The notes beneath the pieces are model-generated. The model had not been told where the DNA came from. It ran no database searches and worked only from the letters and a program-made list of their open reading frames with translations. The position numbers and the translations under genes are program-made. Positions 24,251 to 32,926 of a stretch of DNA of 45,675 bases are shown here, in pieces (the stretch's first letter is position 1; every line of letters begins with the position of its first letter). Source of the stretch: Muribaculaceae bacterium (GTDB taxonomy: Bacteria; Bacteroidota; Bacteroidia; Bacteroidales; Muribaculaceae); assembly GCA_017624155.1 (NCBI GenBank), contig JAGANS010000069.1, positions 1 through 45,675 on the forward strand. Direction: 5' to 3'.

Positions 24251-24340
<90 letters not shown>

Positions 24341-24349
24341 AACAAAATT

Positions 24350-24392
24350 AAATCCGCTGTAAGTCAACAGCTTGCGGCGGATTTTATTTTAT
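24350..24392 (+). terminator. Terminator of the tRNA-Ser gene
   Basis: 14-bp stem with two G.U pairs (24350-24363 with 24371-24384), followed by a T-rich tract. Confidence 0.75.
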
Positions 24393-24484
24393 ATACATAC
24401 AAAAAATACATACAAATTTGCCATGTTGTAGGACAACTTTATCGGGGGCGGAAGCGTTATAGTATAAATAAAAATGTTACTGTC

Positions 24485-24925
24485 ATGAAAAAGATTGTAC
24501 TGATGTTGGCCATGGCTCTTGGCCTTACTTTTGCAGCTTCGGCCAAGGATACATACGCGCACGATGCCTCGGTATTGCCCGAGGCTGCACGCACTACCAT
24601 AAGCAATAATTTCAAGGCCAAGGTGAGCGTGGTGAAAATCGAGAAGACTATGGGCCGGATTGATGAATATGAGGTCATCCTTACCGACGGCTCTGAAATA
24701 TCGTTTGACCGCAACGGTAACTGGGACAATGTCGAGGTCAATAATACCGCATCGGTGCCGAAGGGCTTCGTGCCTAAAGGCGTGGGCGAATATGTGAAGA
24801 AGAATCATTCGGGCACACGGGTTGTCGGTGTCGATAAGGACCGCAGCGGCTATGAGGTCGAGCTCTCCAATGGCATAGACCTGAAATTTGACCGTGCCGG
24901 CAATTTTTTAAAATATGATGACTGA
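24485..24925 (+). CDS. Secreted PepSY-like protein (DUF2874 type)
   Basis: A 146-residue secreted protein with a signal peptide (about 1-20, ending ASA). The mature part shows two copies of the PepSY-like pattern (PF11396): IEKTMGRIDEYEVILTDGSE...FDRNGNWDNV and VDKDRSGYEVELSNGIDLKFDRAGNFL, each a short helix plus a beta hairpin. Such proteins are common in Bacteroidales and are thought to bind or inhibit partners in the periplasm; the role is not established. The ATG at 24485 is chosen because it starts the signal peptide. A weak promoter-like CAAATTTG lies at 24413-24420. Confidence 0.8.
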   Translation: MKKIVLMLAMALGLTFAASAKDTYAHDASVLPEAARTTISNNFKAKVSVVKIEKTMGRIDEYEVILTDGSEISFDRNGNWDNVEVNNTASVPKGFVPKGVGEYVKKNHSGTRVVGVDKDRSGYEVELSNGIDLKFDRAGNFLKYDD

Positions 24926-24954
24926 CGGCTGATATTTCGGCAATGCAAGAAAAG

Positions 24955-25006
24955 GCGCCGGAATCGTAATCAGAGTGATTATGGTTCCGGCGTCCTTTTA
25001 TTTTGT
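24955..25006 (+). terminator. Terminator of the PepSY-like gene
   Basis: Stem 24955-24972 with 24976-24993 (about 17 pairs including wobbles, loop GAG), followed by CCTTTTATTTT. Confidence 0.8.
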
Positions 25007-25017
25007 TATACCGCCAA

Positions 25018-25034
25018 ATCTATTGATAAGAGAT
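25018..25034 (+). repeat. Left inverted repeat of a candidate invertible promoter
   Basis: ATCTATTGATAAGAGAT, a near-palindrome whose centre reads GAT. It matches the reverse complement of the sequence at 25194-25210 at 16 of 17 positions. Confidence 0.6.
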
Positions 25035-25193
25035 GTTTATTGTTTTTAAACAGTTGTGTATCTGGTGATTATTATATGGGCCGGGTTGTATATGATAGTT
25101 AAATGACAAAAAAAAATTGAAATTAAAAGACAAAAAATGGTTACACAATGGCAAATAATCAAATATATTTAGTAACTTTGTAGTCCAATCCAA
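25035..25193. promoter_or_regulatory. Candidate invertible segment carrying the fimbrial promoter
   Basis: An AT-rich 159-base stretch bounded by the inverted repeats. It contains the -7 box TAACTTTG at 25173-25180 pointing at the fimbrial operon, which would be the ON orientation; transcription would start close to the right repeat. No reading frame of interest is inside. A second TAnnTTTG match (TAGTTTTG, 25228-25235) lies outside the segment and could give basal transcription. The rest of 25011-25334 holds no gene. Confidence 0.55.
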
Positions 25194-25210
25194 ATCTCTT
25201 ATCAAGAGAT
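25194..25210 (-). repeat. Right inverted repeat of a candidate invertible promoter
   Basis: ATCTCTTATCAAGAGAT on the plus strand, with 7-bp arms around ATC. The centre is the reverse complement of that in the left copy, so recombination between the two would invert, not delete, the DNA between them. Confidence 0.6.
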
Positions 25211-25334
25211 GCAGCTCGATAGTCCGTTAGTTTTGCAAGGCAGAGGCACTGTAATACGCTGATTATAGGTATTGTATGATAATATTACAAGTGCTTGCTC
25301 TCGATAAGGCCGGAATTAATGAACCATCGTACAC

Positions 25335-26585
25335 ATGACTTCAAACTTTAATTATAAAAGGGACATGGACTCCCATGCCGCAAACACCCAGCCTCCGCCC
25401 TTTTCCGGGTGGGTGGCCGACGTAGCGCGTGTATGTGTGTTGGTGGCATTCTTTATTCTGACAACATTGTCGGCCATCGATATGTCGGCGCAGACCCATC
25501 GCACCACGGTATATTTTCGTGTCGGAAAAGCTGATATAGATACTGCCATATTCGGCAACAGTGCGTCGCTTGACTCCTTGCGGCACGTTGCGGCCGAAAT
25601 AGCCGCTGACAGCACACTGGCCATAGCCGCAATTCATTACGAGGGCTATGCTTCGCCCGAAGGCCCCGAGGCTCTCAACCGTCGGCTCTCTCGGCAGCGT
25701 TGTAGGGCTCTCGAGAATTATGTGCGCGGATATTTCCCCGGGCTCGACTCCGTATCCACCTGCGGCGTTGCTGTATATGACAGCACCGTTGCCACGGCTT
25801 ATGCCCGGGCTACGGCTGCCGGGCGCAGACGCATGGTCCGTGATTTCGGACATCTGCGCTGCGCGTCGGTAACTGTCGATTGCCGGCCCGTATCTGCCGG
25901 ATCTTGTGATACTGTGGTCGAAATGCTCGCACCTGATACGGTATGCGTGGCAGCCGCCGACACAGTGGGGGCCGAAGAAATTGTGACCGAAGTATATGCA
26001 GAATATATATCGGTCGACACGATGCCCGTTCGCGGCGGCAAGCCGCTTTATATTGGGCTGAGAACCAATATGCTGTATGACGCAGCACTTATTCCGACCC
26101 TTGGTGCGGACGTATACGTGGGCCGCAAGTTCAGCATCAGCGGCCAGTGGAGCTATGCATGGTGGAGTCACGACGTGCGCCACCGCTACTGGCGCTATTA
26201 TGGCGGCGACCTGGGTGTGCGGCTGTGGTTTGGCCGGCAGGCCAAGGCCAAGCCGCTCACAGGCCATCATATCGGTATATACGGCCAGTTGTTCACCTAC
26301 GACTTTGAAACCGGCGGCAAGGGCCAGATGGGTGCGAAGTTCAACTATGGCGGCGGTATCGAATATGGATTTTCTCTGCCTGTCGGACGAAGGCTCAACA
26401 TCGACTTCTCGTTAGGCGCCGGCTTCATCACCGGACGCTACCACAAATATACCCCCGTCGACGGGCACTATGTGTGGCAGTCGACCCACAACCGCCGCTG
26501 GTTTGGCCCGACAAAAGCCGAGATATCGCTGGTGTGGCTGATAGGCCGCGGCAACTATAACGCCCGGAAAGGAGGTGGCGAATGA
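25335..26585 (+). CDS. DUF3575 outer-membrane protein of the fimbrial operon
   Basis: First gene of a Mfa/Fim-type fimbrial operon. It encodes 416 residues: a hydrophobic N-terminal segment (about 24-50), an OmpA-like domain (about 55-170) with HYEGYASPEGPEALNRRLSRQR, a linker, and a C-terminal DUF3575 beta-barrel-like domain from about 235 (LYIGLRTNMLYDAALIPTLG, FSISGQWSYAWWSHD). Proteins of this type are thought to sit in the outer membrane and help anchor or assemble fimbriae. An alternative in-frame ATG at 25365 is preceded by AAAAGGGA and may be the real start. It overlaps the next gene by four bases. Confidence 0.82.
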   Translation: MTSNFNYKRDMDSHAANTQPPPFSGWVADVARVCVLVAFFILTTLSAIDMSAQTHRTTVYFRVGKADIDTAIFGNSASLDSLRHVAAEIAADSTLAIAAIHYEGYASPEGPEALNRRLSRQRCRALENYVRGYFPGLDSVSTCGVAVYDSTVATAYARATAAGRRRMVRDFGHLRCASVTVDCRPVSAGSCDTVVEMLAPDTVCVAAADTVGAEEIVTEVYAEYISVDTMPVRGGKPLYIGLRTNMLYDAALIPTLGADVYVGRKFSISGQWSYAWWSHDVRHRYWRYYGGDLGVRLWFGRQAKAKPLTGHHIGIYGQLFTYDFETGGKGQMGAKFNYGGGIEYGFSLPVGRRLNIDFSLGAGFITGRYHKYTPVDGHYVWQSTHNRRWFGPTKAEISLVWLIGRGNYNARKGGGE

Positions 26586-27619
26586 GTCGCCAGGCCATAT
26601 ATGCAGTATGTATGGCGGCCGTGCTTGTGCTCTCATCGTGTGAACACAAGGATCTGTGCTACAACCATCCTGAGCACGCTCTGCGGTCGCAGACACGCAT
26701 CGAGGCGGCATACAACCGCATGTGGGAAGTCGGCGAGGACGGCGAGCCGGCCTGGATGCGGCGCTGGCCCGACACCTTCGGTTTCGGATATGAGACTCTC
26801 GTACCTGATATGCCCGAGGGCCTTTGTGTCAATGCGTATTCGGCCGACGGCAGCCTGTCTGTGTCGCATACGGCTGCCACAGGCGGAATTGTAAGTATGA
26901 AGGCCGGCGACAACTCGCTGCTGATGTACAATGACGATACGGAGTTCATAATATTTGACCGCCTCAACGCATCGGTGTCGGCCAAGGCCACTACGCGTTC
27001 GCGTTCGCGTGCATCATATTCAGGCAATCCGTTCTATGCTCCGGGAACCGAAGGTTATGAGCGCACCGTTACTCCGCCCGACCCGCTGTTCGGGCATTAT
27101 ATAGAGCATTATGAGCAGCCGCGGCTTCAACAGCCGCCATCGCTGGCGGTGACATTGCAGCCGTTAGTATTCACCTATGTGATAAGGTATGAATTTGAGC
27201 AAGGCATCGAATACGTGGGTATAGCACGCGGAGCCCTTGCCGGCATGGCCGAGTCGGTATTCCTTTACGACGGCCATACCGGTCCCGAGCGTGCCACGAT
27301 ACTCTACGACTGCACGGTGGAGCCGTGGGGCGTGCAGGCGGTGGTGAATTCGTTCGGCGTGCCCGACTATCCCAGCCCCGTATATCCCCGTGCCGAGCCG
27401 GGCTCGTATGCCCTCAACCTGGAGGTAAGACTCAGAAACGGCAAGACTTTCAGCTTCGATTACGATATAACCGGGCAGATGGCCGCGCAGCCACATGGCG
27501 GAGTTATCGTAGTGGACGGCATAAAGATAAGCGACGAGGACGGCGATGCCGGCGGCTCGGGCTTTGATGTCACGATAGACGGCTGGGGCGAGTTCAACGA
27601 CATAATAATCAATCTGTAA
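26582..27619 (+). CDS. DUF5119 lipoprotein of the fimbrial operon
   Basis: Lipoprotein of 345 residues, signal ending VLSSC. Directly after the lipid cysteine it has the EHKDLCYNHPEH segment that marks DUF5119 proteins, which recur beside fimbrillin genes in Bacteroidales. The mature part is beta-rich with no catalytic motif, and it probably serves as an anchor or accessory pilin. A Ser/Arg-rich tract (TTRSRSRAS) lies near residue 140. It starts inside the stop of the DUF3575 gene (ATGA) and is followed 41 bases later by the fimbrillin. Confidence 0.8.
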   Translation: MSRQAIYAVCMAAVLVLSSCEHKDLCYNHPEHALRSQTRIEAAYNRMWEVGEDGEPAWMRRWPDTFGFGYETLVPDMPEGLCVNAYSADGSLSVSHTAATGGIVSMKAGDNSLLMYNDDTEFIIFDRLNASVSAKATTRSRSRASYSGNPFYAPGTEGYERTVTPPDPLFGHYIEHYEQPRLQQPPSLAVTLQPLVFTYVIRYEFEQGIEYVGIARGALAGMAESVFLYDGHTGPERATILYDCTVEPWGVQAVVNSFGVPDYPSPVYPRAEPGSYALNLEVRLRNGKTFSFDYDITGQMAAQPHGGVIVVDGIKISDEDGDAGGSGFDVTIDGWGEFNDIIINL

Positions 27620-27660: not shown

Positions 27661-28671
27661 ATGAAAGCAATTCATCTGATCGCAGCAGGCGCTGCCCTCA
27701 CACTGGCGGCCTGCTCAAACGACGAAATGGTGCAGGCTCCCGAAGCCACGCCCATCGGCTTCGACTCGTACATCGGCAAGACCACCCGTGCCGATGATGC
27801 CACCTTGTCGAACGTAAAAAATATCACCGTATACGGTTATCTCGGCGATGCCGGCGCTCCAAAACTCTTCGACGGTCAAATAGTGTCTAATTCGAGCGGC
27901 TCGTGGCAATATAGTCCGCTGCAATACTGGACGGCCGGCAAGAATTACCTGTTCACAGCCGTAGCTTCGCCTGCATCGTCAGGCAACAACCATTACAGCT
28001 ATGCATGGGACGATGCCCGTCCCACGGCCATTGAAGACTTCTATGGCTCGGGTACCATCGGATTCGACAACAGCAGGGCGAGCGGTAACGAAGACCTTAT
28101 CTACGCATTCAAAACCGCGACCACACCGTCGCCTCTTGACGCAGCACCCGACCGTGTGTCGTTCTCATTCAAACATGCTCTGTCGCGCGTTAAGTTCACA
28201 TTCAAGAATGCAATGGCATCCGACGCATATTCTATAAGGGTGTATGATCTTGCAATCAACAATGCCGCCGCAACAGGCAATCTCGTTCTTGGTGCCGAGA
28301 AGCCAGTGTGGACGGTAGCAGGCTCTACCGTTCTGGAATTGCGCCCCGGCTATTTCAGCCCCGCCACCGGCACCGCGGCCAACAACTCATCCGTAGCTTC
28401 TGGTACAAAATTCATCATTCCCGAAACAAAGGCTCTCTCAATCAGCTTCAAAATCGATCTGATTGTGGCAGGCAATGTTGTCGGGACCTACTCGCATATC
28501 GAGCGTGTGCTGCCGTCGGTAGAGTTCCAGAACGGCTACAGCTACAATTTCGCTGCTGAGATCACTCCCGAAAATATCGATCCCGATCAGGATCTCTTCC
28601 CGATTCTGTTTAATGTGACGGAAGTAGAAGGTTGGACCGAAAATCCCGATGTACCTGTAACATTAGAATAA
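27661..28671 (+). CDS. Fimbrillin family protein, probable major pilin
   Basis: Predicted structural subunit of a surface fimbria (Mfa-like/fimbrillin family), exported as a lipoprotein: lipobox LAACS after a 17-residue signal. KTTRADD near residues 40-46 resembles the Arg cleavage site at which Bacteroidales pilins are trimmed before polymerisation. The mature part is two beta-sandwich domains; FSFKHALSRVKFTFKN in the middle and VEFQNGYSYNFAAEI near the end are typical of the family. At 336 residues it fits a main subunit. It is separated from the next gene by a strong stem-loop. Confidence 0.87.
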   Translation: MKAIHLIAAGAALTLAACSNDEMVQAPEATPIGFDSYIGKTTRADDATLSNVKNITVYGYLGDAGAPKLFDGQIVSNSSGSWQYSPLQYWTAGKNYLFTAVASPASSGNNHYSYAWDDARPTAIEDFYGSGTIGFDNSRASGNEDLIYAFKTATTPSPLDAAPDRVSFSFKHALSRVKFTFKNAMASDAYSIRVYDLAINNAAATGNLVLGAEKPVWTVAGSTVLELRPGYFSPATGTAANNSSVASGTKFIIPETKALSISFKIDLIVAGNVVGTYSHIERVLPSVEFQNGYSYNFAAEITPENIDPDQDLFPILFNVTEVEGWTENPDVPVTLE

Positions 28672-28680
28672 TCTGCATAT

Positions 28681-28715
28681 CTCCGTGGAGGCGTCCCAAT
28701 GGCGTTTCCACGGAG
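28681..28715 (+). promoter_or_regulatory. Intercistronic stem-loop between pilin genes
   Basis: A 13-bp stem (28681-28693 with 28703-28715; two G.U pairs) with a 9-base loop, located between the major fimbrillin stop and the next start. No T-run follows, so it is more likely an mRNA stabiliser, processing site or partial attenuator than a full terminator. Confidence 0.6.
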
Positions 28716-28733
28716 GTGTATCCACCTCATAGC

Positions 28734-30884
28734 ATGCATAAAAAGATTGAAAAGAAGCTGAAATATCTGTTGACATGTGTGGCGCCGGCGTTATTACTGG
28801 CGGCATGTGCCGAGGATACGCCTGTCGATACCGGTCGTGGATCGGGCATCGTATTCGGTATAAGCGAGGCCGTAATGTCGCGTGGCGAAGCCTCGTCCGT
28901 GGCAGGGCATTTCGATCTTTGCAATCACGCCGATACGGTGCGCGTCAGATGCACTGTGGAGGATATAGCAGTGGTGAAGGCTGCCGGTCGCGGCGAGCCG
29001 GCCACCGGAATCAAGGACTTCCGTGCATGGGCCTACCTGCACGACGGGGGGACGGTTAAACCGTTCTTTTCCGGTGAACCCGTGTCGGACAAGGGAACGT
29101 ATTGGGCCACTGATCAGAATTATTACTGGCCGACATTGGCCGGGCAGCGCCTGGCATTTACCGCTCTGTCAGTGCTCCCCGACGGTATGACAGTCGATGC
29201 GCGGCAGCAAGGTGTATCGATACAATATACCATAGCCTCGCAGGCAGCCGCGCAGCCCGATGTTATGCTTGCCGAAACCGAGCCGGTCAACGGCAACGGA
29301 ATACCGGATTACAGAGTACCTCTGAGATTCAAACACATTTGCGCCGCTGTATGCTTCAAGACCGGAAATCAGCTGATGCCCGGCACGATCGAGAAGATTA
29401 CACTCAGCGGAATACATGACACCGGCACATACGCCGACGGCGTCTGGAGCATAGCCGGGAATGTGAGGTCGTTCAGCCTCGACACATCTGTGGAAACTAC
29501 CGGCAACGAAACCGCCGGCTCAGATCTTTATCAACCATATAATACCTTTATGTTTTTGCCTCAGGTACTTGGCCCGGATGCGCGCCTTGAGGTGGTATTC
29601 AATGACAAAACCAGCGGTACCACGCGCACGCTGAGTGCATCGCTCGCCGGGCAGGAATGGCCGATGGGGCGCATCACCACATATCATATCGGCATAAGCC
29701 CCGACTTCGGGCTTGAATTCAATGTCGCCCCGCCTGTGCAGGACGCGCACTATGTGATGTGCAACACTGCGGTGAGCGTACGGGGTGTGGCAGCCAATGC
29801 CCGCTGGACACTCACGGCCAAAGCCGACGACGGTGCCGATGTGACAATACAGCGCGAGACCGATGTGAACGAATACGCACGACTGGGATTCTGGCTCGAC
29901 AAGCGAATGAGCAATGGTGTGGTACAGGACGAGAGCGTCCGCGGCACATCGATGATAAGCGGAGTGGGGAATGTGGAAAATCTCGACGTAAGAGTCTTCA
30001 TCCCTGAGAACGCCGGCGACGGTGAGCGCGGAATTACTCTCACACTGCATGTCGACGGCACTCCCGAATCGACGGCTGTCACGCAGACAATCACGCAGCT
30101 CCATCCGGTATGGAACGGCTCGGCAGGCTGGGAACAGATCGACGACAACGAGTCGGGCATATACGGTTTCTGCTACACCGCAAGGCATGTGTATGTGTAT
30201 AATAATACTCATCCTGATGTTTGGCCGTCATACACAGCATCAAAGATAATCAGTCAAGTCACAAATATGGTGACAAATTATAATGCCGGGAGCTATGCTG
30301 AGGTTATAAAATATTGGTGGAAAACTGGCTATAGAAACTATGTTGATATTGATTATCGTAAACTTAATACATTGGATAATAAGTCAAAGTCCACCACGGA
30401 TGGTTTACAGAATACACGTGATTTAGTTACTTTCGGCGGTACTGCGATAAGTAAGAATTTTGAGGAAGCAATAAAAGAAATGCGAAGGGTAACTGATACC
30501 AGCGTGCTTGCCTATTCTCCTAAAAATGAAAGAAATCCTGACAGTGATCCATCAAGCATGCCGAATTGGATAGATGGTGTAGAAATAAATGAGAGACAGG
30601 CTTTGGCTATAGTTTTGAAAAAAAACAGATACTTTCTAAATACGTCGACCGTAGAAGGTAGCGCTTCTACAACACCGCTTATCCGGCCCGAAGATATCGA
30701 ATGGTATATGCCTGCAAGCGGGCAGTTTGCAGGTATGCCGGGATGGTATGACGGGGTTGCAGCAACGCCGGGCGACTATTGGTCGTCGACCGCGGCGACC
30801 GGTACAAATTCGTATATCGGGAGCGGAATGGCGTTGCCGCGCACTACTGTCAAAAACATCCGTGTGATGCGCAACCGCCCGTAA
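28734..30884 (+). CDS. Large fimbrillin-like protein, probable fimbrial tip adhesin
   Basis: Last gene of the fimbrial operon; the ATG at 28734 gives a clean lipoprotein signal (LLLAACAED) and 716 residues. Residues about 30-330 look like a fimbrillin fold (YRVPLRFKHICAAVCFKT, MGRITTYHIGISPDF), 340-455 like a beta-sandwich, and the C-terminal part ends in WYMPASGQF...DYWSSTAATG...RTTVKNIRVMRNRP, the pattern of the DUF1566/FISUMP lectin-like domain found at the ends of many Bacteroidales surface proteins. This suggests a tip adhesin. DNA from about 30190 to 30650 is distinctly richer in A+T than the rest of the gene. Confidence 0.78.
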   Translation: MHKKIEKKLKYLLTCVAPALLLAACAEDTPVDTGRGSGIVFGISEAVMSRGEASSVAGHFDLCNHADTVRVRCTVEDIAVVKAAGRGEPATGIKDFRAWAYLHDGGTVKPFFSGEPVSDKGTYWATDQNYYWPTLAGQRLAFTALSVLPDGMTVDARQQGVSIQYTIASQAAAQPDVMLAETEPVNGNGIPDYRVPLRFKHICAAVCFKTGNQLMPGTIEKITLSGIHDTGTYADGVWSIAGNVRSFSLDTSVETTGNETAGSDLYQPYNTFMFLPQVLGPDARLEVVFNDKTSGTTRTLSASLAGQEWPMGRITTYHIGISPDFGLEFNVAPPVQDAHYVMCNTAVSVRGVAANARWTLTAKADDGADVTIQRETDVNEYARLGFWLDKRMSNGVVQDESVRGTSMISGVGNVENLDVRVFIPENAGDGERGITLTLHVDGTPESTAVTQTITQLHPVWNGSAGWEQIDDNESGIYGFCYTARHVYVYNNTHPDVWPSYTASKIISQVTNMVTNYNAGSYAEVIKYWWKTGYRNYVDIDYRKLNTLDNKSKSTTDGLQNTRDLVTFGGTAISKNFEEAIKEMRRVTDTSVLAYSPKNERNPDSDPSSMPNWIDGVEINERQALAIVLKKNRYFLNTSTVEGSASTTPLIRPEDIEWYMPASGQFAGMPGWYDGVAATPGDYWSSTAATGTNSYIGSGMALPRTTVKNIRVMRNRP

Positions 30885-30898
30885 AAACGGCAAAAGTT

Positions 30899-30930
30899 GT
30901 TGGATATCCGCGAGGATATATGTACCTTTG
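30899..30930 (+). promoter_or_regulatory. Promoter of the small SGNH hydrolase gene
   Basis: GTTG (30899-30902) and -7 TACCTTTG (30923-30930), 20 bases apart. The start codon follows 28 bases later, so this gene does not depend on the fimbrial promoter. Confidence 0.75.
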
Positions 30931-30958: not shown

Positions 30959-31648
30959 ATGTACAGACTATTGATGATATTAGCTGCGATGCTGATGTAT
31001 GCATCCGGCGTGTCGGCCCAAAAGACCGATTGGGCGAAGTTTGACCGCTATGCCGAGGCCAACAGGGAGGTACAAGCCGATCCCGACAACAAGCGCCGGG
31101 TGGTATTCTTCGGAAATTCGATCACACAGTTCTGGGCATCGAAGCGCCCTGCTTTTTTTGAGTCGAACGGCTTCATAGGTCGCGGAATAGCCGGACAGAC
31201 GACCTATCAGTTCCTGTCGCGCTTCCGCGAGGATGTGGTGAATCTGCACCCGCGCCTTGTCGTGATCAACGCCGCGACAAACGATATCGCCGAGAATTCG
31301 CATCCCTACGACGAGCAACGCACGCTTGGCAATATAAAGTCGATGGTCGAGATAGCCCGTGCCAACGGCATCAGGGTGATATTGACGAGCACCCTGCCGG
31401 CTGCCGGATTCAGCTGGAACAAGGAGATAAAGGACGCGCCCGAGAAGATTGCCGCCCTCAACAGACTGATCGCCGAATATGCACGTCAGGAGAAAATCCC
31501 ATACGTCGACTATCATTCGCAAATGCTCGACGAGGACGGGCGCAGCCTCAGCCGCATGTATACCGAGGACGGCGTGCATCCTACCGTGGCCGGGTACGAG
31601 GTGATGGAAGCGCTGATACTGCCCTGCGTGCGTAAGATAGTGAAATAG
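30959..31648 (+). CDS. Secreted SGNH/GDSL hydrolase
   Basis: Single-domain SGNH esterase of 229 residues with a signal peptide ending VSAQ. Catalytic blocks: VVFFGNSIT with nucleophile S54, GIAGQTTYQ (oxyanion Gly), VVINAATNDI (Asn), and DGVHPTVAGY supplying Asp and His at about 206 and 209. It resembles acetylhydrolases acting on platelet-activating-factor-like lipids or acetylated sugars. The ATG at 30959 is chosen from the signal peptide and its own consensus promoter. It stands between the fimbrial operon and the recombinase gene and ends at a strong terminator. Confidence 0.87.
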   Translation: MYRLLMILAAMLMYASGVSAQKTDWAKFDRYAEANREVQADPDNKRRVVFFGNSITQFWASKRPAFFESNGFIGRGIAGQTTYQFLSRFREDVVNLHPRLVVINAATNDIAENSHPYDEQRTLGNIKSMVEIARANGIRVILTSTLPAAGFSWNKEIKDAPEKIAALNRLIAEYARQEKIPYVDYHSQMLDEDGRSLSRMYTEDGVHPTVAGYEVMEALILPCVRKIVK

Positions 31649-31670: not shown

Positions 31671-31699
31671 ACGCAATCCGCTGCGGATTGCGTTTTTTT
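31671..31699 (+). terminator. Terminator of the SGNH hydrolase gene
   Basis: Near-perfect stem ACGCAATCCG/CGGATTGCGT (31671-31692) followed by seven T. Confidence 0.9.
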
Positions 31700-31732: not shown

Positions 31733-32926
31733 ATGGCAACAATCAAAGTAAAGGTAGAGCCGGCGACCATCACAGACGTCCCGGACAAAGTTTATTATCA
31801 GATAAGTCACAAGGGACGTGTCCGCCGGATATTCAGCGGTTACCGCATTGAAAAAGGCGAATGGAACGGCGTGCGGGTGACACCGGTGCGCGATGACGTG
31901 GCCCGCAACAGCGCGCTGAAAAACATATCGGCCGGTATTAAAGCCGGGCTTGCACGCTTGGCAAGAATCGTGGCGGCTCTCGACAGCAATGCCGCCGAAT
32001 ATGATGTGGCGGATATCATCGACGCCTATGCCGCGTATATGGCCGAATACTCGTTTACGGCATATATGCAAGGGCTCATAGCAGGTCTTAAGGCGGCAGG
32101 GCGTGTGCGCACTGCCGAGACTTACGAGGCCGCAATGCGCAGTTTTGCAAAGTATTGCGGAACCGACATCATGCTCGATACGATCGACAGCGGCCTTATG
32201 GCCGGCTATCAGCAGTGGCTGTCGGCGCGGGGGCTTACGATGAACAGTATATCGTTCTACAACCGCATATTGCGGGCAGCATACAACCGTGCGGCCGACA
32301 GCGGGGCGATAGATCAGCGACACCCTTTTGCCAAGGTGTATACCGGGATTCCGGCCACGGTGAAGCGGGCGCTACCCCTGTCGGTGATGAAGCGGATCAG
32401 GAAGCTCGATCTGCACGATAAGCCGGCAATGGAATACGCACGCGATATGTTTCTGTTGAGCTTCTATCTGCGAGGGATGAGCCTGATCGACATGGCCTAT
32501 CTGCGGCGCAGCGATCTGCGCAACGGCTATGTGGTGTACCGGCGGCGCAAGACCGGCCGGTTGCTGATGATAAAATGGACGTCCGAGATGCAGCGCATCG
32601 TGGACGTCCATAAGTGCGGATCGGGCGATTATCTGTTGCCGGTATTCAGGCTGAAGCCCGATGGCAGGAGTTCCTACCGCAACTGCTGTTACAACATCAA
32701 CAGGCAGCTGCACCGTATCGGGCATGCGCTCGGACTCTGCACACCGCTCACCATGTATGTGGCGAGACACTGCTGGGCAACAGCGGCACGCAGTAAAGGC
32801 GTGCCGCTGAGTGTGATAAGCGAGGGCATGGGGCACAATTCCGAGGCCACGACGCGGATATACCTGGCATCGCTCGACACATCGGCGGTCGACAAGGCCA
32901 ACTCGCTGGTGATAGGAAGTATATAG
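31733..32926 (+). CDS. Tyrosine site-specific recombinase (candidate invertase)
   Basis: Tyrosine recombinase of 397 residues with the layout of Bacteroidales integrases and DNA invertases: N-terminal arm-type domain (1-85), SAM-like core-binding domain (about 90-200) and catalytic domain (about 210-390). Catalytic residues: R247 in FYLRGMSL, K273 in RRRKTGR, Y342 and R345 in TMYVARHCWAT (Tyr replacing the usual His of HxxR, as I recall from other Bacteroidales invertases), H368 in GMGHNS, and nucleophile Y377 in TRIYLA. No excisionase, relaxase or phage gene is near, and no att duplication was seen. Its position after the fimbrial operon makes it the best candidate to act on the repeats at 25018 and 25194. 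Confidence 0.88.
   Translation: MATIKVKVEPATITDVPDKVYYQISHKGRVRRIFSGYRIEKGEWNGVRVTPVRDDVARNSALKNISAGIKAGLARLARIVAALDSNAAEYDVADIIDAYAAYMAEYSFTAYMQGLIAGLKAAGRVRTAETYEAAMRSFAKYCGTDIMLDTIDSGLMAGYQQWLSARGLTMNSISFYNRILRAAYNRAADSGAIDQRHPFAKVYTGIPATVKRALPLSVMKRIRKLDLHDKPAMEYARDMFLLSFYLRGMSLIDMAYLRRSDLRNGYVVYRRRKTGRLLMIKWTSEMQRIVDVHKCGSGDYLLPVFRLKPDGRSSYRNCCYNINRQLHRIGHALGLCTPLTMYVARHCWATAARSKGVPLSVISEGMGHNSEATTRIYLASLDTSAVDKANSLVIGSI

Follow-up and report, generated by a model that had tools for sequence, protein, structure and literature searches.

The fimbrial cluster and the segment upstream of it

The window, a 45,675-nucleotide stretch of contig JAGANS010000069.1 from a Muribaculaceae bacterium (assembly GCA_017624155.1), carries a fimbrial gene cluster on its plus strand. 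The first gene (25335 to 26585) encodes a DUF3575 protein of 416 residues (Pfam PF12099, E = 1.9e-36) and is followed by genes for a 345-residue DUF5119 protein (26582 to 27619; PF17145, E = 4.8e-30) and a 336-residue fimbrillin-like protein, Mfa_like_1 (27661 to 28671; PF13149, E = 8e-21). All three matches are well above the Pfam cut-offs, and the last, at 75.6 bits against a cut-off of 27, identifies a fimbrillin-like structural gene as found in Mfa/FimA-type operons. These families bear out the initial annotation of this DNA, made from the letters alone, in its choice of a fimbrial operon as the target of the switch discussed below. No solved structure matched the fimbrillin at an E value of 0.1. 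The last gene of the presumed operon is a large open reading frame (28632 to 30884) of 750 residues if counted from its mechanical start, the true start not being settled, in which no family was found. Next come a GDSL lipase-like gene (30959 to 31648, start read from the sequence; the mechanical frame begins at 30779) preceded by a TACCTTTG box of its own at 30923, a hairpin resembling an intrinsic terminator (31671 to 31693, plus strand) and, closing the cluster about 6.5 kb downstream of the segment, a gene for a 397-residue tyrosine recombinase (31733 to 32926, plus strand), the presumed invertase.

The segment upstream of the DUF3575 gene (25018 to 25210, 193 bp) is intergenic and flanked by 17-base inverted repeats, within the 10 to 40 nt usual for Bacteroidales promoter invertons. 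It had been annotated as an invertible promoter in the ON state, and the elements named in that proposal are all in the sequence. The left site, ATCTATTGATAAGAGAT (25018 to 25034, plus strand; ATCTATT-GAT-AAGAGAT), and the right site, ATCTCTTATCAAGAGAT (25194 to 25210; ATCTCTT-GAT-AAGAGAT on the minus strand), agree as inverted copies at 16 of 17 bases and have opposed central triplets, GAT and ATC. A -7 box of the Bacteroides type, TAACTTTG (25173 to 25180, plus strand), lies 13 nt inside the right site and faces the neighboring fimbrial operon, as in promoter invertons, and a second TAnnTTTG, TAGTTTTG, occurs outside the segment at 25228 to 25235. What had gone unremarked is the layout of the arms, each an imperfect 7-3-7 palindrome, ATCTCTT-NNN-AAGAGAT, around its triplet.

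The DUF3575 gene on the right reads away from the segment and a PepSY-like gene on the left reads towards it. The fimbrial operon is therefore the only target that the promoter could drive, and the box points at it, in agreement with the ON state originally assigned. On the left side lies a strong hairpin (24950 to 24998), preceded by an A-run and followed by a T-run and thus terminator-like in both directions (-34 kcal/mol with z = -9.1 on one strand, -25 kcal/mol with z = -7.1 on the other); it would end OFF-state transcripts coming from the flipped promoter. A tRNA-Ser (tga) gene at 24251 to 24338 overlaps the start of the mechanical frame at 24257 to 24925, and the PepSY-like gene probably starts further down. 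In its own assembly, the segment is present in one orientation only.

The arms belong to a dispersed site family

Taken alone, the inverted repeat goes little beyond chance and is only suggestive: of 40 simulated windows, 5 (about 1 in 8) contained some 16-of-17 inverted pair separated by 60 to 320 bp. At least three matches to the right-arm site within three mismatches were found in none of 100 dinucleotide shuffles of the window (mean 0.07), the pattern being derived from the window's own right arm. With the repeat near the chance rate, decisive support comes from membership in a site family found elsewhere, which we define here as ATCTCTT-NNN-AAGAGAT. The right arm fits it at 14 of 14 half-site positions and the left arm at 13 of 14, with one mismatch, and the central triplets, GAT and GAT when read as inverted copies, fit as well.

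A loose-pattern scan found inverted site pairs in 35 of 397 genomes of the window's bacterial family, its own genome counted, and a scan of genome_contigs found at least 118 stretches with site pairs. Among the matches listed in the latter are Phocaeicola vulgatus ATCC 8482, with three segments, P. massiliensis, P. sartorii, P. faecalis, Dysgonomonas mossii and Muribaculum caecicola. Three records titled Clostridium sp. (L119, L130 and L164) also have sites; as the L119 segment is identical to L065, from a genome of the window's genus (G035), the title of L119 is doubtful and probably wrong. The letters of the site motif were not found in the literature searched, and no paper was found there uniting Muribaculaceae, phase variation and invertible.

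From the loci of both scans and of a recombinase search, 101 distinct pairs were read and 92 were retained. The nine dropped were seven with unlike cores (L108 four times, L141 at 4572, L148 and L168), L118 and the second pair of L063. The first counts cover 80 of the at least 118 stretches (L091 to L170); the other 38 (L171 to L208) were held back and yielded 31 new distinct pairs, besides nine already counted. Exact arms were present in 27 of the 31, which were counted; two of the remaining four have unlike cores. Many sites of the 397-genome scan are listed without a locus and were used solely in a hand-made table of cores.

Two other segments front DUF3575 genes, one (L063/L135) in a genome of the window's bacterial family and one (L122) in Bacteroidaceae IMSAGC_004, where the gene after DUF3575 matches DUF3868; with the window's, all three read ON. 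DUF3575 operons need not carry the switch, for no site with two or fewer mismatches was present at any of 19 DUF3575 loci from the window's genus. For a check of orientation in relatives, the best-scoring DUF3575 proteins of the genus are 36 to 68% identical over parts of the protein, none being close. The window's own genome has a second fimbrillin locus on contig 66, a contig on which no site was found even when three mismatches were allowed. At L135:7101-7396, three site copies with core AAC, two direct and one inverted, lie between a family recombinase and the DUF3575 gene, with two boxes aimed oppositely: a compound switch with two possible inversions.

The distal tyrosine recombinase

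The protein encoded at 31733 to 32926 has a SAM-like domain (2.5e-16) and a catalytic domain (3e-8). Residues R247, K273, R345, H346, H368 and Y377, which we take to be the catalytic positions of the tyrosine recombinase family, are conserved in it and invariant in the recombinase alignments. Identity is 42 to 52% to nine relatives and 38 to 58% to recombinases within 600 bp of family sites, against 26 to 37%, partly over short stretches, to four other tyrosine recombinases of the same genome. The assembly, 87.8% complete, has no other close member (next best match 62 bits, against 887). Five NCBIfam recombinase or invertase models matched (Xer, integron and general tyrosine recombinase), all far below cut-off, and solved structures gave two distant Xer-type matches. 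In a tree of 53 recombinases, the protein groups with relatives from its own bacterial family, some with sites and some without, and three further recombinases of its genome fall elsewhere. The exact placement is unsure, as 20 of the 50 inner branches are unresolved and the bootstrap had not converged.

That the fimbrial cluster includes a recombinase of this family also supports reading the segment as an invertible promoter; the position of the enzyme's gene at the far end of the target cluster is a little unusual. No site lies in the 450 bp on either side of the gene, the best candidates having six mismatches on the 3′ side and five on the 5′ side. In the DNA examined, a family recombinase lies within 600 bp of 20 of the 92 segments, and the window's segment has no adjoining one. 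In all 20 cases, a set mostly chosen by site, the 3′ end of the recombinase gene faces the segment. Of 24 homologues obtained by protein search alone, one without downstream DNA and one with only 141 bp of it, five have a site (at most one mismatch) in the 450 bp downstream, 19 have none downstream and none has one upstream. The recombinase beside a segment of P. vulgatus ATCC 8482 (L141:3435-4370) has a 312-residue frame, against about 400 in most relatives, and is possibly broken.

As no recombinase is found beside the window's segment, or on the visible side of a second segment on contig 34 (see below), remote action of the clustered enzyme would be the economical explanation. We also considered that its expression might be coupled to the ON state by readthrough from the fimbrial promoter, an idea weakened by the box at 30923 and the hairpin at 31671 to 31693. 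Given the terminator-like hairpin ahead of its gene, the recombinase probably does not arise by readthrough from the fimbrial operon.

Conceivably, the segment was once invertible and is now locked ON, the distal recombinase serving something else. The mismatch in the left arm, the lack of an adjoining recombinase and the ON reading of three out of three DUF3575-linked segments would agree with this, as would a precedent in P. vulgatus CL10, where a promoter with a broken neighboring invertase stayed largely ON (PMC13114119). Against these points stand half-sites that fit the family at 14 and 13 of 14 positions, a matching core, and a family recombinase free of internal stops in the same cluster, and we regard locking as unlikely. 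Still harder to sustain is the proposal that the recombinase is the integrase of an island beside tRNA-Ser and that another enzyme flips the segment. A tRNA-Ser gene does lie upstream, 7.4 kb from the recombinase, and the recombinase has no site beside it; however, the rest of the window repeats no stretch of the tRNA-Ser exceeding 11 bases, so that an island integrated at this tRNA was rejected for want of a tRNA repeat, and the protein is closer to site-adjoining recombinases (38 to 58%) than to the four others of its genome (26 to 37%).

Core triplets and promoter direction across the family

Strand exchange by tyrosine recombinases across a short core demands matching cores. The search patterns fixed the arms, and mostly also the length (175 to 206 bp), and left the triplets free. 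When all 101 pairs are restricted to those with exact arms, both L063 pairs included, the central triplets match as inverted copies in 89 of 89, with a chance of about 6% each given the triplet spectrum; the held-back set gives 27 of 27, with a chance of about 11% each. The pairs behind these counts are not independent, the genomes being related and some carrying several segments. The 92 retained pairs contain 31 different triplets. A match between inverted copies is what strand exchange by a tyrosine recombinase demands.

The notion that private cores insulate the segments of one genome from each other was not supported. A hand-made table of core classes covers 18 genomes that have at least two segments each; in it a class is shared by 38 of 60 pairs from one genome and by 121 of 1165 pairs from different genomes. 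The sharing is driven by P. massiliensis, P. faecalis and a few others that have a single core throughout (in the two named species, one core is common to all segments read), and falls to 3 of 22 upon removal of three Phocaeicola sets, Pullibacteroides and BRZ_LL.

Exactly one outward TAnnTTTG lies 10 to 16 nt inside one arm in 82 of the 92 retained segments, the interiors shuffled with preservation of single-base composition only giving a mean of 1 and a maximum of 4. A box 10 to 16 nt inside an arm is likewise present in 25 of 27 held-back segments (same shuffles: mean 0.3, maximum 2). The modal distance from box to arm, 13 nt (44 of 82), is that of the window. Judged by the direction of the nearest genes, the 82 one-box segments comprise 12 that are ON, 34 that are OFF, 23 with a possible target on both sides and 13 with none on either. 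Where a family recombinase lies within 600 bp (20 segments), the box faces it in 14 and faces the other way in four; two have no box. A single group of 16 related downstream proteins includes four ON, five OFF and seven ambiguous by rule; eight members of this group were tested and all match the UpxY model, one over the cut-off, and a ninth, L159, is also over it. The occurrence of both box directions, compared between loci and not between alleles, is comparative evidence suggesting that segments of the site family flip.

Were the arms a pair of palindromic operators around an ordinary fixed promoter, nothing would flip; their palindromic form, common to many operators, and the lack of a flipped junction in the window's own assembly would suit this. 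An operator does not need a matching triplet, yet the triplets match throughout both sets (89/89 and 27/27) while their 31 kinds vary between loci. The direction of the box relative to its target also differs between loci, and the recombinase 3′ end lies towards the segment in 20 of 20 recombinase-adjoining cases. Fixed operators thus appear very improbable.

The promoter inside the segment

Aligned on their boxes, the 82 family promoters have no strong -33 box and share a conserved run like TTTCAAATATTTT directly 5′ of the -7 box. The window has AATCAAATATATTTAG at this place, keeping the run largely intact. The want of a good -33 element, which the initial annotation had counted as a weakness, is therefore a trait of the whole family and no longer tells against the promoter. 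A profile was made from the family promoters without the window, using positions outside the fixed bases. It gives the box inside the segment 8.67 bits, the second-best value among 35 TAnnTTTG in the window. Left out and ranked within the family, the window's promoter comes 52nd of 81 (median 11.3 bits); it is a typical member, somewhat weaker than average. The other weakness, the second TAnnTTTG outside the segment, also falls away: TAGTTTTG fits the bare pattern but scores -23.9 bits (28th of 35), against 8.67 inside, and that it is the real promoter, making segment orientation irrelevant, is hardly credible.

A second segment in the same genome and targets elsewhere

Within two mismatches, the only other sites of the genome are a pair on contig 34 (237 to 253 and 412 to 428; core TGT; 192 bp across), where the DNA on one side of the segment ends after 236 bases. 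The box of this segment (L034:237-428) points away from a reading frame cut by the contig end, 22 of whose 43 residues match L159 at 73%. As L159 is over the UpxY cut-off and the box faces away, the segment reads OFF. The 43 residues alone matched no Pfam family, and a search of the genome with the UpxY model found nothing. We tentatively entertain, at rather below even odds, that one enzyme, the recombinase whose gene closes the fimbrial cluster, inverts two unlinked promoters, the fimbrial one (GAT, ON) and the UpxY-like one of contig 34 (TGT, OFF). If this were true, a single enzyme would couple the fimbria to surface polysaccharide, and the different cores would keep the two segments from recombining together.

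Proteins of 449 to 524 residues at L048:10072-11427, L076:1844-3190 and, as a weaker case, L155:4053-5624 lie behind segments of the site family; each resembles a UpxY antiterminator preceded by a decayed tyrosine-recombinase part. The L048 protein matches Phage_int_SAM_5 at residues 15 to 83 and UpxY at 277 to 448, and the L076 protein matches UpxY at 294 to 442, both UpxY matches being below cut-off. A search of just ten downstream proteins with a profile of eight recombinases gave 2e-11 for L048, 5e-8 for L076, 5e-5 for L155 and 0.4 for L109, and hhalign of four of these proteins with ten recombinases gave 97.9% over 227 columns. In L048, the places of the catalytic Arg (YLRG to YGGG) and Tyr are lost. 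The literature search found no paper combining UpxY, integrase, fusion and NusG.

Targets of other kinds were also observed. Fifteen related proteins of 161 to 179 residues lie behind segments at Phocaeicola loci (L091, L092, L124, L141 and others); the one tested, L091, is an AraC/HTH_18 regulator and not a structural gene. Large proteins at L104:959-3958 and at the related loci L113, L126 and L140 also lie behind segments of the family; L104, the only one tested, contains a TonB-dependent receptor plug domain.

Comparison with known switches

Promoter invertons of gut Bacteroidota were reportedly catalogued by Jiang et al. in 2019. In the fimS switch of E. coli, the tyrosine recombinases FimB and FimE invert a promoter ahead of a fimbrial operon. 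The window resembles it in joining a tyrosine recombinase to such a promoter and differs in the type of fimbria, of promoter and of site, and in that both fimS recombinases are encoded beside the switch.

The likeness to the promoter invertons of gut Bacteroidota in PMC11892184 is one of architecture: these too have short inverted repeats around a Bacteroides-type promoter 5′ of surface genes, linked site-specific recombinases, and FimB/Mfa2 fimbrial genes among those inferred to be switched. According to the same paper, invertases near invertons are generally not regulatable by the inverton's promoter, whereas the gene for the window's recombinase follows the promoter on the same strand, with a terminator-like hairpin in between. 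P. vulgatus CL10 has an invertible promoter before upxY, with inversion detected by PCR and a -7 box between inverted repeats as in the window; the authors regard a different recombinase of the cell as the probable agent of its flipping (PMC13114119). There the target is a polysaccharide locus, unlike the window's fimbria. The IP-ARG invertible promoters of Bacteroidales conjugative elements are segments beside an invertase gene, neighboring ones sharing similar repeats and differing in promoters (PMC8748976). They drive resistance genes on conjugative elements, unlike the window, where a scan of nine proteins found no resistance or conjugation family. In Bacteroides fragilis, one enzyme, Mpi, flips many dispersed promoters (PMC5903667). 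Mpi is a serine recombinase, whereas the enzyme clustered with the window's fimbria is a tyrosine recombinase.

The proposed switch

Comparison with the site family upholds the invertible promoter first proposed for this locus. We put at roughly 0.9 the probability that the segment at 25018 to 25210 is an invertible promoter, flipped by a tyrosine recombinase and here ON, in front of the fimbrial operon. The recombinase, most likely that at 31733 to 32926 acting remotely, would bind the palindromic 7-base half-sites of both arms, and strand exchange across the identical central GAT would flip the segment. In the present orientation, the TAACTTTG promoter would drive the DUF3575-DUF5119-fimbrillin operon; once flipped, it would face the two-way hairpin at 24950 to 24998 and the convergent gene, and the fimbria would be off. 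The sites, the box, the genes, the family of the recombinase and the architecture common to the site family are established; the site-family evidence on flipping is all comparative, and from it we infer inversion in this strain. The identity of the flipping enzyme, and production of the fimbria only in the ON state, we infer likewise.

Promoter invertons before surface genes of Bacteroidota are already known, and the window very probably holds a further one, adding a probably phase-variable fimbria in a Muribaculaceae-related lineage. The switch is recognizable from sequence alone, its marks being palindromic arms, core triplets that match, and a -7 box some 13 nt in from one of the arms; over the two sets, triplets match in 116 of 116 pairs and a box lies 10 to 16 nt inside an arm in 107 of 119. 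With such a signature, promoters of this kind, and often also whether they are ON or OFF, could be recognized in a single assembly when no reads are available.
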